Shown here piece by piece: positions 7,508 to 11,829 of a DNA stretch of 38,167 nt (its first letter is position 1; the number at the start of each line of letters is the position of its first letter). The notes below the pieces were generated by a model, which was not told the DNA's origin, did not search any database, and saw only the letters and a list, made by a program, of their open reading frames with translations. The stretch is from assembly GCA_948471205.1 (NCBI GenBank), contig CAOKRT010000014.1, forward strand, positions 1 to 38,167, in the 5' to 3' direction. Source of the stretch: an uncultured Oscillospiraceae bacterium. GTDB taxonomy: Bacteria; Bacillota; Clostridia; Oscillospirales; Acutalibacteraceae. The position numbers and the translations under genes are program-made.

Positions 7508-8488
7508 ATGATTTTTGCTGATAAATTAATTAAACTGAGACGGCAAAAGCATTGGTCGCAGGAGGAACTTGCGGAAAGAATGCATGTTACAAGGCAGTCT
7601 GTTTCAAAATGGGAAAGTATGCAGTCCTTGCCGGATTTGGACAGAATTTTACAGCTTTCCGAACTGTTTGGCGTCAGTACAGATTATTTGCTGAAGGATG
7701 AAATAGAAGAGGAGCAGGCAGAGAAAGAAGCAGATAACGGCGGACGCTATGTGTCTGTTCAGGAAGCGGATGATTTTATAGCGGTAAAAAAAGCATCTGC
7801 TGTTCCGATTTCAACGGGCGTTTTTTTATGCATTATTTCACCTATATGTCTTTTAATGCTGGGGGCTTTAAGTGAAAATATTAAAAATTATATTTCAGAA
7901 AATATGGCAGGCGGGCTTGGCATCATTGTTATGTTGGCATTTATTGCGGCAGCGGTTATGATTTTTATTGTCAGCGGTACCAAAACGTCTAAATTTGAAT
8001 ATATGGAAAAGGAAATAATTAAAACGGACTCAAGTATAATAAAAAAAGTAAAATATGAAAAGGAACAGTTTTCAAAAAAGTATATATGGCTTCTCACAAT
8101 CGGCGTTATTCTTTGCATACTGAGCCTTATTCCGATTTTTGTGGGGGCTATGATAGATGAGGACAATGATATTGTTCTGACAGCCTTTCTGTGTATTACA
8201 ATTTTTATTGCAGCGGTGGGAGTAATGGTTTTAACACGTGTAAATATAATTAATAATGCCTACAATATGCTTTTGCAGGAGGGTGATTATTCAAAGGAGA
8301 AGAAAAAACGAAATCCGCTTGTTTCTGTTGTCAGTACAGTTTATTGGCTTACGGCAACGGCCGTTTATTTGATATGGAGTTTTTTGACAAATGATTGGGA
8401 AATAACATGGCTCGTTTTTGTAGTGGCAGGTGTGCTTTTTCCGGCGGTGGCTGCAGTTGTAAATTTAATAGTAAAAAGAAAGCAATAA
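7508..8488 (+). CDS. XRE-family regulator with C-terminal membrane domain
   Basis: A 326-aa protein. The first 65 residues are a Cro/C1-type helix-turn-helix (LRRQKHWSQEELAERMHVTRQSVSKWE...LSELFGVSTDYLL). A charged linker follows, and then about six hydrophobic segments (around residues 97-118, 133-157, 197-217, 222-245, 279-298 and 303-321). A DNA-binding domain tied to a membrane domain suggests that transcription responds to a membrane-level signal; the ligand is unknown. AAGAGG precedes ATG 7508. The gene lies head-to-head with the bile salt hydrolase gene, so control of that gene is possible but unproven. Confidence 0.85.
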   Translation: MIFADKLIKLRRQKHWSQEELAERMHVTRQSVSKWESMQSLPDLDRILQLSELFGVSTDYLLKDEIEEEQAEKEADNGGRYVSVQEADDFIAVKKASAVPISTGVFLCIISPICLLMLGALSENIKNYISENMAGGLGIIVMLAFIAAAVMIFIVSGTKTSKFEYMEKEIIKTDSSIIKKVKYEKEQFSKKYIWLLTIGVILCILSLIPIFVGAMIDEDNDIVLTAFLCITIFIAAVGVMVLTRVNIINNAYNMLLQEGDYSKEKKKRNPLVSVVSTVYWLTATAVYLIWSFLTNDWEITWLVFVVAGVLFPAVAAVVNLIVKRKQ

Positions 8489-8517
8489 AAAAGGCGGACA
8501 TTACTGTCCGTCTTTTT
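8488..8517. terminator. Bidirectional terminator
   Basis: AAAAAGGCGGACA (8488-8500), loop TTAC, TGTCCGTCTTTTT (8505-8517), between the convergent XRE and yhhQ genes. It overlaps both stop codons. Confidence 0.85.
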
Positions 8518-9208
8518 TACTTTTATCATTTATTCTTCTTGCAAGGTAAACACAGGGGGTATCCAGCACGGAAGTAACAATATAAATTACATAGCTGGAT
8601 GCAAATATGGAAACAAGTGTTTTCATATCATATGTGCCGTAAAAGGCAAACAGTGTAAACAATGCTGTATTTATGAGCTGGCTGATAAGGGTGGAACCGT
8701 TGTTTCTGAGCCATAAAAAGCTTCTTCTGTTTCCTGATTTTTTTTCTGTGAATGCCCACCATTTGTGATAAAGCCAAACATCAAACATCTGACTTACGGC
8801 ATATACAGCAAAGGACGCAATCATCATTCTCGGCGTATTTGAAAATACACTTTTTATGGCCGGCATTGCCATGTCGGTACTGCTGGGAATGTAAAGAAGC
8901 CAGCTTTGGCTTAAAAGCAAGAAGAATAAGGATGTGAACATTCCAATCCAAACAGCTCTGTTTGCCGCTTTTTTGCCTTCACATTCCGAAAGGATATCTG
9001 TTATTAAAAATGTAGATGCAAATAGTATATTGCCGAGGGTTTGTTCCATACCGAAAGCATTTATAAGAATAAGCGCTTCAATATTTGCCAGTATGGTGGC
9101 AATAGCAGACATGCAGTAAAGTCCGCTTTTTCCAAAAAATTTATAAGATATAAGTACCATTGAAAAAGTAAATATCAAGGACGCAATAAGCAAAAGTTCA
9201 TTTATCAT
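8501..9208 (-). CDS. yhhQ: Queuosine precursor transporter (VUT/YhhQ family)
   Basis: A 235-aa membrane protein of the VUT (vitamin uptake transporter-like, formerly DUF165) family. The family imports 7-deazaguanine precursors of queuosine (preQ0, preQ1 or queuine). Signature blocks are FLITDILSECEGKKAA in the N-terminal half (Asp-x3-Glu-x2-Gly) and RNNGSTLISQLINTALF in the C-terminal half. About six membrane segments are present. ATG 9208 follows the stop of the QueL-like gene with one base between (TGA-A-ATG on the minus strand), so the pair is translationally coupled. The upstream TTG start at 9226 would overlap the GGAG site and is less likely. Pairing with queL and a preQ1-type leader supports queuine as a cargo. 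Confidence 0.88.
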   Translation of the reverse strand: MINELLLIASLIFTFSMVLISYKFFGKSGLYCMSAIATILANIEALILINAFGMEQTLGNILFASTFLITDILSECEGKKAANRAVWIGMFTSLFFLLLSQSWLLYIPSSTDMAMPAIKSVFSNTPRMMIASFAVYAVSQMFDVWLYHKWWAFTEKKSGNRRSFLWLRNNGSTLISQLINTALFTLFAFYGTYDMKTLVSIFASSYVIYIVTSVLDTPCVYLARRINDKSKKDGQ

Positions 9209-9209
9209 T

Positions 9210-9905
9210 TCAGTCACCAACTCCAAAATCTGTATTATTAATTAAAATGTCAATTCTTTCATGTTTCTTATACAACGGATAAAGTTTTTCCGTAAAATCG
9301 GAAATTACTTTGCTGTCGGGCTGAACAGCGGTTGAATTTTTGCACATTATGTTCACACATATTCGTTCAAAGTATTCAAGCCCGAGCATAATATCGTTTT
9401 TCATTGAAGCAACAGTTTGTCCTGTAATTCCAAAAAGAAAATTGGCTTCATCAAAATTTTTGCTGATGTTTTTTTCGCTCTTTTCAGGTATTCCTTTTTT
9501 CAGAATATTCTCTCGAAAATCAAAATCAAAGGTTTCCAGTCCAAGCTTCAGTTTCAAATCAAAATCTTTGAATTCTTTACGCAAATCGGGAATTCGGTTT
9601 CGGTAAAGATAATGTGCTTCAAAATGAATGGTTTTGATATTTTTTTCATAGCATATTTGTTTTATAAGCAGAATGGTTTTTCGGTCAAGCTCGAAAACAG
9701 AACCGCTGTTAATTACTTCAAGCTCTCCGAATTCACCTGTAACATTTTTTAATATACTGCTGTTGAGTGTGAAATTTTCGTTTTCATCTGCACATTTGTC
9801 ACAATGATAATCGCAGAAGGTGCATTTTCTATAAATACAGCCGCTGCCTCTTAAAAGAACGATTTCACGTTTTCTTTTTTCTGTAATTTTACTGTATCTT
9901 TCCAT
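9210..9905 (-). CDS. queL: QueL-like radical SAM enzyme (queuine lyase candidate)
   Basis: A 231-aa radical SAM protein from ATG 9905 (MERYSKITEKRKREIVLLRG). The iron-sulfur cysteines are C23, C28 and C31, spaced C-x4-C-x2-C rather than the classical C-x3-C-x2-C, followed by DYHCDKC. The C-terminus is ILINNTDFGVGD. I recall close relatives starting MExY...REIVLLRGSGC and ending NNTDFGVG. In Clostridioides difficile a radical SAM enzyme, QueL, cleaves queuine to preQ1 and is encoded beside YhhQ and QueK. The neighbouring yhhQ and the preQ1-like leader point to the same job. No QueK (queuosine hydrolase) gene is present. A longer frame starts at 9950, but its extra residues are encoded by the leader terminator. 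No Shine-Dalgarno sits at the usual distance from ATG 9905, only an AT-rich stretch. Confidence 0.72.
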   Translation of the reverse strand: MERYSKITEKRKREIVLLRGSGCIYRKCTFCDYHCDKCADENENFTLNSSILKNVTGEFGELEVINSGSVFELDRKTILLIKQICYEKNIKTIHFEAHYLYRNRIPDLRKEFKDFDLKLKLGLETFDFDFRENILKKGIPEKSEKNISKNFDEANFLFGITGQTVASMKNDIMLGLEYFERICVNIMCKNSTAVQPDSKVISDFTEKLYPLYKKHERIDILINNTDFGVGD

Positions 9906-10026
9906 AATAATAAAAAAAGCGCCCGATAAGGACGCAGAAGGGCATGGCATACCCTTTATACTCCTTAGTTTTGATTTGAAAAAATCCTATTGGTATTTTC
10001 CGGGCAGGATGGTTACGAACTGCCTA
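9906..10026 (-). promoter_or_regulatory. Candidate preQ1-type riboswitch with attenuator, upstream of queL
   Basis: Reading the minus strand, the leader begins near 10026. P1 is GGCAG (10024-10020) with CTGCC (10007-10003), enclosing the 12-nt loop TTCGTAACCATC. Next comes a hairpin GGAAAATACC/GGATTTTTTC (10002-9979). An A-rich tail then ends in ACTAAGGAG (9969-9961). After an AAGGGTAT/ATGCCCTT hairpin (9956-9938) comes GCGTCC-TTATC-GGGCGC (9935-9919) followed by seven T: an intrinsic terminator right before the coding start. TAAGGA (9967-9962) can pair with TCCTTA (9932-9927), an antiterminator. A small stem, a pseudoknot-capable loop and an A-rich tail ending AAGGAG resemble preQ1 aptamers. 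Class III is possible because a hairpin is inserted. Class and ligand are not proven. Confidence 0.7.
9912..9935 (-). terminator. Intrinsic terminator of the queL leader (attenuator)
   Basis: GCGTCC / GGGCGC stem (one T-G pair) with a 5-nt loop and a run of seven T, ending 7 nt before ATG 9905. It sits between the promoter and the coding region, so it must be conditional. Confidence 0.8.
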
Positions 10027-10032
10027 TGTGTT

Positions 10033-10060
10033 ATTTTATCATTTTTTTATGATTTGTCAA
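10033..10060 (-). promoter_or_regulatory. Promoter of the queL-yhhQ leader
   Basis: A consensus TTGACA (10060-10055), a 16-nt spacer and TAAAAT (10038-10033) on the minus strand. It is the best -35 match in the window that has a correctly spaced -10. Confidence 0.75.
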
Positions 10061-10089
10061 CAAATTTTTTATAGTTTTATAAAAATGAG

Positions 10090-10114
10090 TTTGTAAAGCA
10101 AATAACTTTACAAA
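10090..10114. repeat. Perfect 9-bp inverted repeat
   Basis: TTTGTAAAG (10090-10098) and CTTTACAAA (10106-10114) flank a 7-nt centre. It lies upstream of the queL promoter and has no T-run, so it is more likely a protein site or a chance hairpin than a terminator. The rest of 10115-10229 is AT-rich with nothing I can name. Confidence 0.4.
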
Positions 10115-10229
10115 GCTGTGTGTGATAAAAACGCAGGTATAAAGCCAATTTCTAATAAAGTGCAGATTATATTTTATAGAAATAAAGGAAAAAACCTTTA
10201 CATACAAATTTTATAAACTGTAAAAAAAC

Positions 10230-10262
10230 AAAACCGTCTGCAAATATATTGCAAACGGTTTT
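10230..10262 (-). terminator. Terminator of the nanE-nanA operon
   Basis: AAAACCGT (10230-10237) pairs with ACGGTTTT (10255-10262), and TGCAA with TTGCA inside. On the minus strand it is followed by GTTTTTTTAC. Confidence 0.8.
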
Positions 10263-10273
10263 TAATATGCTTT

Positions 10274-11161
10274 TTACTCGCTCATAAGTTTTTCGGCAAT
10301 CTTTTTCATAGAAGCACGGCATTCATCTGTAATAGGAAGAAAAGGCTTTCTGCATTCGCCCATATCAATTCCCATTTCGCTGAGAATTGCTTTTTCAGAC
10401 TGGAAAACACCATGTTTAATCATCTCTGTAATGATTTCATCAGCTTCGTTTTGACCTTTGATTGCTTCATCAATGTTTCCTGCTTTAAAATCATTCATTA
10501 TTTTTTTGAACTTTTTGCCCATGAAATTATATGTGCTTCCGATTGCGCCGTCTGCACCCATTGCAAGACCTGAAAGAAGCGTTTCGTCAAAACCGTTGTA
10601 AACAACGATTTCACGGTCAAGCTGTTTAAACTGCTGCAGTGCAAACATATCGCTTGATGTATGCTTAATGCCTATGAATTTTTCGTTTTTAAACATTTCA
10701 TTTGCAACATCTTTGGTAAGTGCAAATTTTCCCGAATTGGGAAAGTTGTAAACAATCATCGGAAGAGATGTGCTGTTTGCAATATCATTGTAATAACCTG
10801 TTATGGATTCAAGCGGAAATCCGTAATAATACGGTGCAACAGCAGAAATTGCATCATAGCCAAGGCTTTCCGCATATTTTGCCATATCAATTGCCGCATC
10901 TGTGTGCAGTGTGCCTACATGTGCAATCAGAGTTGCTCTGCCCTTTGTTGCTTCGGCAACGCATTTAAAGGTTGCCTTTCGTTCTTCATTTGTAAGAAGA
11001 AGACCTTCCCCCGTGCTTCCGCCTACGTAAAAGCCGTCAATGCCGTTTTCAAGATTAAATTCAACAAGCTTTTCCATTGCTTCAAAATTAACGGATGAAT
11101 CCTTATTAAACGGTGTTAACAATGCCGAAAATAATCCTTTGAATTTGTTTAAATCGTTCAT
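10274..11161 (-). CDS. nanA: N-acetylneuraminate lyase
   Basis: A class I aldolase of the DapA/NanA family (295 aa) that splits sialic acid (Neu5Ac) into N-acetylmannosamine and pyruvate (EC 4.1.3.3). The pyruvate-binding GSTGE motif is at residues 48-52, the catalytic Tyr is in IVYNFPN (near 137), and the Schiff-base Lys is in GIKHTSSD (near 165). Thr/Ser after the Lys and the YYGFP segment favour NanA over dihydrodipicolinate synthase. Its ATG overlaps the nanE stop by 4 nt (ATGA), and a terminator follows. No sialic acid transporter or nanK lies nearby, so those functions must be encoded elsewhere. Confidence 0.93.
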   Translation of the reverse strand: MNDLNKFKGLFSALLTPFNKDSSVNFEAMEKLVEFNLENGIDGFYVGGSTGEGLLLTNEERKATFKCVAEATKGRATLIAHVGTLHTDAAIDMAKYAESLGYDAISAVAPYYYGFPLESITGYYNDIANSTSLPMIVYNFPNSGKFALTKDVANEMFKNEKFIGIKHTSSDMFALQQFKQLDREIVVYNGFDETLLSGLAMGADGAIGSTYNFMGKKFKKIMNDFKAGNIDEAIKGQNEADEIITEMIKHGVFQSEKAILSEMGIDMGECRKPFLPITDECRASMKKIAEKLMSE

Positions 11162-11829
11162 TTTTCAAACTCCTTTGCAAATCTTTTTGTAATATCCATC
11201 GGTCTTGTAATTGCACTTCCGATTACAACTGCATACGGATCGCATGCAAGCACCTTATCAAGCTGTGCGATTTCCCAAATTCCACCTTCTGCAATAACTT
11301 TTGCATGCAGTTCTCTGCGCATTCTGGACAGCATATCGTAATCGGGAATAGAAATGCCTTTTGTGTATTCTGTATATCCGCGCATTGTGCTGCCCACATA
11401 GTCAAATCCCATTTCGTCTGCTGCTTTTGCTTCCTCAAAAGTAGAGCAGTCCGCCATGATTTCAACGTGCGGTGCGTTTTCGCGGATATAAGCCACCAAA
11501 TCTTCCAACTTTTCGCCGTTTGGGCGCGGTCTTGCCGTTGCATCAAGCGCAATAACCTCACAGCCTGTTGAAAGAAGTTCTTTTACTTCTTTCAGTGTAG
11601 GCGTAATGTAAACATCACTGTCATCATACACAGCCTTAATAATTCCGATTACGGGAACGGAAACCTCTTTTTTGATTGCAATGATATCCGATACATAGTT
11701 AGCCCGGATACCTTTTGCACCGCCGAGAACAGCGGCCCTTGCAAAATGATGCATCATCTCAAGTCCGTAAAGAGGTTCGCCCTTTACTGCCTGGCAAGAT
11801 ACTATCAGTCCACGGTTTAAATTAGCCAT
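11158..11829 (-). CDS. nanE: N-acetylmannosamine-6-phosphate 2-epimerase
   Basis: A 223-aa TIM-barrel enzyme converting ManNAc-6-P to GlcNAc-6-P in sialic acid catabolism (EC 5.1.3.9). Family blocks are RGLIVSCQA at the N-terminus, VIGIIK with the catalytic Lys (near 65), DATARPRP, MADCSTFEEA and AEGGI. Length matches the family. It is the first gene of nanE-nanA, with GCAGGTG before ATG 11827-11829 and a promoter at 11863-11891. It faces the beta-mannosidase gene across a 127-nt divergent intergenic region, which would allow joint control. Confidence 0.94.
   Translation of the reverse strand: MANLNRGLIVSCQAVKGEPLYGLEMMHHFARAAVLGGAKGIRANYVSDIIAIKKEVSVPVIGIIKAVYDDSDVYITPTLKEVKELLSTGCEVIALDATARPRPNGEKLEDLVAYIRENAPHVEIMADCSTFEEAKAADEMGFDYVGSTMRGYTEYTKGISIPDYDMLSRMRRELHAKVIAEGGIWEIAQLDKVLACDPYAVVIGSAITRPMDITKRFAKEFEK

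Follow-up and report, generated by a model that had tools for sequence, protein, structure and literature searches.

A predicted three-stemmed variant of the preQ1-I type I riboswitch in front of a queuine salvage operon in an uncultured Oscillospiraceae bacterium

Riboswitches of the preQ1-I class are among the smallest known and serve as a model of RNA folding, and in the portions of the literature available here the described forms are simple H-type pseudoknots. Type I members are presented in the accessible passages with an L3 strand that has no embedded stem (PMC8752633; PMC11625349), and their consensus has UU after the 5' strand of P1, UC before its 3' strand and a C in the tail, AC being given for type II (PMC11625349, available text). 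In the solved type I structure, as covered by the accessible part of PMC8752633, the first ligand is contacted by G5, U6, C17 and A30 and the second by U7, C31 and U16, with a ceiling of C8-A12-U32 and a floor of A28-G5-C18. For a type III member, binding is reported to depend on the length of L3, and the turn from P1 to L3 varies between structures (PMC10622847, in the passages available). The term three-stemmed pseudoknot is applied to the fluoride and preQ1-II riboswitches (PMC11262651, available part). A hairpin in the L3 of a preQ1-I riboswitch was not found described, either through full-text searches of the available papers or in the accessible portions of PMC11625349, PMC8752633, PMC10622847 and PMC11262651.

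The DNA analysed here, referred to as the window, is a stretch of 38,167 nucleotides (contig CAOKRT010000014.1) that carries such an arrangement in the leader of a queL operon on its minus strand (Table 1). In RNA order, the leader reads GGCAG-UUCGUAACCAUC-CUGCC (10024-10003), the insert, the tail AAAUCAAAACUAAGGAG (9977-9961), a spacer hairpin and a terminator. This leader is very probably a preQ1-I type I riboswitch with a hairpin inserted at the turn from P1 to L3. To judge from sequence comparison, it is a three-stemmed variant of that type which controls queuine salvage through transcription termination, and for which we infer ligand binding.

Table 1. Positions of the leader elements and operon genes in the window.
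Feature	Position	Strand	Details
Promoter	-35 TTGACA 10060-10055; -10 TAAAAT 10038-10033	minus	spacing 16; 11/12 consensus positions
Aptamer hairpin	10003..10024	minus	P1 GGCAG/CTGCC around 12-nt loop TTCGTAACCATC
P1 strands	10024-10020 with 10007-10003	minus	12-nt loop 10019-10008
Inserted hairpin, P1-to-L3 turn	9978..10002	minus	apical CC-AAUA-GG; fold -4.6 kcal/mol
A-rich L3 tail AAATCAAAACTAAGGAG	9961..9977	minus	ends AAGGAG; presumed pseudoknot 3' strand; second half of model R1, E 0.001
UAAGGA	9962..9967	minus	predicted antiterminator 5' strand and aptamer end
Spacer hairpin	9938..9957	minus	enclosed by predicted antiterminator
UCCUUA	9927..9932	minus	predicted antiterminator 3' strand, within terminator 5' arm and loop
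Intrinsic terminator	9912..9935	minus	stem 9935-9919, T tract 9918-9912
queL, queuine lyase (radical SAM)	9210..9905	minus	PDB 6P78, E 4.8e-53, residues 1-231
Queuosine precursor transporter, VUT/YhhQ family	8501..9208	minus	TIGR00697 E 1.3e-50; Vut_1 E 5.4e-47

Much of this layout had been proposed in a sequence-only reading of the same DNA. The consensus promoter (TTGACA-16-TAAAAT) is present at 10060-10033 of the minus strand, matching consensus at 11 of 12 positions, and the 5-bp stem, its loop, the inserted hairpin and the A-rich tail ending in AAGGAG were all located on that strand. The exact pairing of TAAGGA with TCCTTA also holds, UAAGGA at 9967-9962 being complementary to UCCUUA at 9932-9927. 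A terminator does stand upstream of ATG 9905, but the gap after its T tract is 6 nt (ATTATT) and not the 7 nt first given. Among 7 promoter-like sites in 8400-10400, this promoter scores highest; since shuffles of this region yield 7.8 such sites, the site alone is little proof. Promoters of a similar kind stand upstream of homologous leaders, as noted by eye and uncounted. In fold energy, the leader is unexceptional (z -1.38), with 20 of 200 shuffles folding equally well. Terminator-like sites in 8400-10400 number 8 against 1.4 in shuffles. The main evidence that sets the leader apart from chance is comparative.

The identity of the controlled gene, proposed earlier as QueL-like, is borne out by similarity to queuine lyase 6P78 at E 4.8e-53 over residues 1-231, the sole solved-structure match of the 231-residue protein at E up to 0.001. 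The similarity is full-length, and CIYRKCTFC of QueL aligns with CIWGKCSFC of 6P78, a cysteine motif common to both. Against Pfam, the protein has no match at E 0.001, and a domain search gives a weak RaSEA match. The transporter gene starts 1 nt behind queL. Elsewhere, the genome encodes a tRNA-guanine transglycosylase (TGT, E 1.8e-152), and QueC is represented by two weak part-length matches of 23 and 20.3 bits (cut-off 22); TGT together with these QueC matches would fit a queuosine salvager. Upstream on the same strand, 10274-11829 encodes an N-acetylneuraminate lyase and, probably, an epimerase of the same pathway. Behind this region, a strong terminator-like hairpin lies at 10262-10230, which makes it likely that queL is transcribed as a separate unit.

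Relatives of the leader were collected through the QueL protein from four named contigs and 12 of 60 genomes (its own included), giving 16 loci. With L012 a duplicate of L001, these amount to 15 distinct leaders, one of which (L005) is that of the window. The same loop and tail recur in all 15 upstream of a homologous gene (a remnant in L016), and the relatives thereby settle the kind of switch. An insert lies between P1 and the tail in 13 of these leaders; the two insert-free ones (L014 and L015) come from other families of the order. Across 53 distinct insert-free sequences, 99.4% of P1 cells are paired, with three of the six pairs changing on both sides and three never varying. Among the sites retrieved as loci, P1 is fully complementary in 63 of 63 distinct 31-nt sites and in 30 of 31 distinct longer sites, the exception being L086, which was rejected as a member. 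The whole structure reaches a covariation score of 0.215, whereas shuffles give 0.057 and sliding the structure gives no more than 0.091; the pairs with change on both sides number four, a count reached by 95 of 500 shuffles. In the presumed pseudoknot, A12-U32 is invariant. The P2 pair proposed next to it, between N10 and the base that follows CUA, is of standard type in just 24 of the 53, so standard P2 pairing beyond A12-U32 was set aside as unsupported. Given these values, covariation does not demonstrate the pseudoknot, which in the window aptamer would instead be expected by analogy with the solved relative.

When the letters of the window aptamer are compared with the published description (PMC8752633, in the part available), all type I contact bases are matched in the window, tail positions being counted back from the tail C. 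The window also has UC and UU, together with the conserved C and CUA of the tail, in line with the type I consensus as given in the accessible text of PMC11625349. Because the hairpin breaks the L3 strand, which is uninterrupted in the published descriptions available, the leader is filed as a preQ1-I type I variant. The suggestion of a preQ1 sensor, "possibly class III or a variant", stands as far as a preQ1-type switch is concerned, assigned by sequence to type I of class I, while class III found no match. A pseudoknot with an extra hairpin does bring classes II and III to mind, and occurrences of preQ1-III in Ruminococcaceae and in metagenomes have been reported (PMC11625349, available part). 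However, neither the preQ1-III model (RF02680) nor the preQ1-II model (RF01054) matches at E up to 10, the letters fit class I type I position by position, and insert-free homologues exist. The sequence evidence speaks strongly against a preQ1-III or preQ1-II riboswitch, which we regard as barely credible.

In Rfam, no family reaches its gathering score anywhere in the window. Against 9800-10120, the PreQ1, PreQ1-II and PreQ1-III models gave no match at E up to 10, and the nine weak Rfam matches seen at that limit are to unrelated families far below their cut-offs. The sequence-only reading had named such a lack of any preQ1 model match as counting against it, and this is what was found for the window itself; the covariation in homologous leaders that it had also made decisive is present in P1, between the insert halves and between tail and terminator. 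The relatives were scanned with RF00522, the gathering score of which is 39. Among 14 loci scanned, L014 alone matches RF00522, at 25.6 bits and below gathering, and insert-free L015 and the insert-bearing loci have no match. In 20 further loci (16 insert-free, four insert-bearing), none reaches gathering, and at E up to 10 the model matches 12 of the 16 insert-free loci (21.1 to 30.9 bits) and none of the four with inserts. The Rfam model at its gathering score thus misses this part of the family, with 0 of 20 related loci found. McCown 2014 is reportedly the source of the preQ1-I consensus alignments, which may include insert-bearing members.

An independent covariance model, R1, was built from 58 of 64 available insert-free homologues (six apparent near-duplicates were left out) in a gapless alignment with P1 as the sole structure and the window excluded; its E-values are rough. 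R1 finds the window aptamer as two matches divided by the insert, at 10025-9997 (E 1.1e-8) and 9988-9960 (E 0.001), the next match in the window having E 0.27. In a search of the whole genome, the first half of the window aptamer is the best match (E 5.2e-7) and the next has E 0.04. The latter, at C2:177611, is an unrelated place in which the loop motif is absent, and it is taken as chance. On 26 other loci, the 25 that bear inserts were all matched at E 7.6e-7 or better. The remaining one, G493 (L086), fits the DNA pattern used below, but forms 0 of 5 P1 pairs and scores 7.2 bits with R1, and it was discarded as a false match.

To survey the insert, genomes were searched with the pattern TTCGNNACCATC-N(9-39)-CAAAACTA, with total lengths of 29 to 59 allowed; as the pattern fixes loop and tail, divergent members are uncounted. 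A sample of the order (394 genomes) gave 94 places in 90 genomes, and a sample of the class (391 genomes) gave 75 places in 70 genomes. The two samples overlap, and with three places common to both the total is 166 by hand count from the rows. Exactly 31 nt is the length of 146 of these sites and 41 to 55 nt that of the other 20, with nothing between. Once G493, which is without P1, is removed, 19 longer sites remain in an accepted total of 165, so that the insert is absent from 146 of 165. At the 19 insert-bearing sites, which span 11 genera and eight families (f1, f4, f18, f20, f21, f26, f43 and f76), all five P1 pairs form, and P1 is likewise present in all of the 63 or 64 31-nt sites in which it could be checked. 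A search for longer inserts in 388 genomes found one (G194). The hairpin occupies the turn from P1 to L3 without disturbing the tail, and since the sites have either 31 nt or extra letters closed by a hairpin, the length of L3 is fixed in this sample unless the extra letters form a hairpin. By eye, the P1 3' strand CTGTC, dominant at 31-nt sites, occurs at 0 of the 19 insert-bearing sites, and CTGCC is seen with inserts only; this split may mean that P1 and insert co-evolve, or it may reflect shared ancestry.

In fold stability, 28 of 30 inserts equal or exceed 95% of 500 mononucleotide shuffles, in a set that includes the rejected G493 and near-duplicates; those of G008 (40/500) and G025 (75/500) fall short. 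The insert of the window is a weak stem of -4.6 kcal/mol, with 21 of 500 shuffles as good. A combined p-value was not used, as the sequences are related. In a MAFFT alignment of the 13 insert-bearing leaders, the insert arms are out of register, RNAalifold finds P1 only, and two structures imposed on the alignment pair 19.7 and 32.9% of outer-stem cells. For this reason, the halves of the inserts were permuted instead. With 28 inserts (G493, G139 and G039 left out, G194 added), 0 of 5000 permutations match the pairing of the inserts' own halves, a result that holds separately for the 13 inserts of the window group and the 15 others, although relatedness among leaders inflates permutation tests of this kind. 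In 16 of the 28, the own half ranks first among all candidate partners.

These results bear on whether the leader might be an ordinary preQ1-I type I switch, its hairpin a neutral, stem-closed insertion that L3 tolerates and that has no role in sensing. This reading, which overlaps the preferred one except on the role of the hairpin, falls only a little short of an even chance. Insert sequences differ between genera, as it would predict, and presence varies within genus g86 (G139 and G179 with, G201 and G232 without), as for a tolerated indel, and within g38 (G272, G300 and G362 with, G426 without). However, own halves fit better than permuted ones, so that stems are kept though letters change, the tip RAUAG recurs in 9 of the 13 window-group inserts, and all 10 distinct leaders fetched from the genus of the window carry the insert. 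The tip is mostly CC-RAUA-GG, and L002, L003, L004 and L016 have different tips. Aligned at AUAG, the nine inserts conserve the C, C and G that flank it in 8, 7 and 7 cases, and three further positions (A, U, U) in 8 or 9, with most outer stem letters varying; the kept tip may point to selection on it or to short common ancestry. A more ambitious proposal, which we consider doubtful, gives the hairpin a function as a third stem: it would have arisen repeatedly in preQ1-I type I aptamers and would tune cooperative two-ligand sensing, and in this lineage its CC-RAUA-GG tip would make a tertiary contact or be recognised by a second factor.

A natural pair of leaders isolates the hairpin. In two genomes of genus g86, the queT leaders L050 (with the hairpin) and L065 (without it) are identical at 295 of 300 letters upstream, at 472 of 480 downstream and at all 31 aptamer letters. 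They differ by one 22-nt gap corresponding to the hairpin, indicating that it can be gained or lost independently.

The expression platform of the preQ1-I type I variant was compared among the leaders of its group. A T tract of six or seven stands behind a hairpin upstream of the gene in 13 of 13 group leaders, with four letters between hairpin and T tract in L002; in L001, the best fold is a hairpin other than the presumed terminator. The tail and the 5' arm of the terminator vary jointly, as AAGGA/UCCUU, AAGGG/CCCUU and CUAGG/CCUAG, and for the 13 leaders 0 of 5000 permutations are as good as the own pairs, the weakest match being that of L002 (-3.5 kcal/mol). Transcribed up to the terminator 5' arm, the window leader folds as the antiterminator (-27.5 kcal/mol), and at full length as the terminator (-29.3), antiterminator forms of the full leader lying within 2 kcal/mol of this at -27.5 to -28.9; these energies omit the pseudoknot. 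The terminator/antiterminator toggle proposed from the window thus gains support from covariation of tail and terminator arm, at the level of sequence only. Scanned insert-bearing loci had queT, queL or a transporter behind them in 9 of 9 cases.

The AAGGAG of the tail invites a different reading, namely translational control in which it serves the in-frame ATG 9950, with translation running through the terminator into queL. In the window, ATG 9950 is in frame 10 nt past AAGGAG, and the queL ATG 9905 has no clear ribosome-binding site. Across 14 leaders, however, 6 keep this frame free of stops between tail and ATG, compared with 8 and 4 for the two other frames, and the position of in-frame starts is not conserved; a leader reading frame through the terminator was therefore rejected, and we consider this kind of control highly improbable. 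Insert-bearing queT leaders such as L022 and L054 have AAGGAG or similar a few letters before ATG, and there the variant probably acts on translation, to judge from this spacing. In insert-bearing queL leaders, the ATG lies 0 to 9 nt behind the T tract in 12 of 13. Pairing with the anti-Shine-Dalgarno at -7 kcal/mol or better occurs in 0 of 14 insert-bearing versus 17 of 22 insert-free queL leaders, with start codons picked by script, some of which may be off. The loci concerned are the window (9906-9925), L001-L011, L013, L051 and L100.

For the transcriptional variant in the window, the following course of events is proposed. When preQ1 is low, the UAAGGA of the nascent tail would pair with UCCUUA as an antiterminator, and queL and the transporter gene would be transcribed. 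When preQ1, the QueL product, is plentiful, it would bind the aptamer, possibly with the two-ligand occupancy of the solved type I structure. Bound preQ1 would lock the tail in the pseudoknot and thereby free the 5' arm of the terminator, and transcription would then end before queL. The inserted hairpin would replace the short turn, probably stacking under P1 with the path length of L3 kept, and it may tune folding speed as P4 of preQ1-II does. The comparisons above give good support to the type of riboswitch and its expression platform; preQ1 as the ligand, its stoichiometry and what the hairpin does are inferred. What the letters of the window and its relatives establish is that loop and tail are conserved, that P1 covaries, that a hairpin stands where the insertion lies, that tail and terminator vary jointly and that a salvage operon follows.

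Several other loci were observed in the course of the survey. In L016 (G021), queL matches only about residues 202-231 behind its start codon, with switch, terminator and transporter gene retained, and by its sequence this queL looks internally deleted. Insert-free preQ1-I type I switches precede a PF06050 gene (2-hydroxyglutaryl-CoA dehydratase D-like, double-cubane reductase-like) in L068, L069, L070, L071 (genus g193), L087 and L091; at L070 and L091 the gene was assigned solely from the similarity of its translation. The PF06050 gene of L071 is directly followed by one for a BadF/BcrA-type ATPase. A full-text search found no paper among those available that treats queuosine and 2-hydroxyglutaryl-CoA dehydratase together, and the two genes are, on gene order, a candidate for a new queuosine-pathway pair.

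Taken with the described forms of the class, the survey places a stem within the loop of preQ1-I in at least eight families, and the near-identical leaders of one genus that differ by that stem offer a ready-made test of its effect. The closest known system is the preQ1-I type I riboswitch (Carnobacterium antarcticus structure; RF00522), with which the window shares P1, the UU and UC flanks, the A-rich tail with CUA, the preQ1-contacting bases and queuosine salvage genes downstream; unlike it, the window has a hairpin at the P1-to-L3 turn, and RF00522 does not match at E up to 10. In Clostridioides difficile, a preQ1-I switch lies upstream of queK-qrtT-queL (PMC11477304, available part), so that preQ1 control of queL is not new; the two systems have the preQ1-I class and queL in the controlled operon in common, and differ in operon make-up. 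The nearest functional parallel to the inserted hairpin, by analogy, may be helix P4 of preQ1-II, the deletion of which has a minor effect on binding while P4 matters for binding kinetics (PMC11625349, in the accessible text). Both would add a stem to a preQ1 pseudoknot while taking no direct part in reading preQ1, but P4 belongs to another fold and class, whereas the hairpin of the window sits on a class I aptamer.
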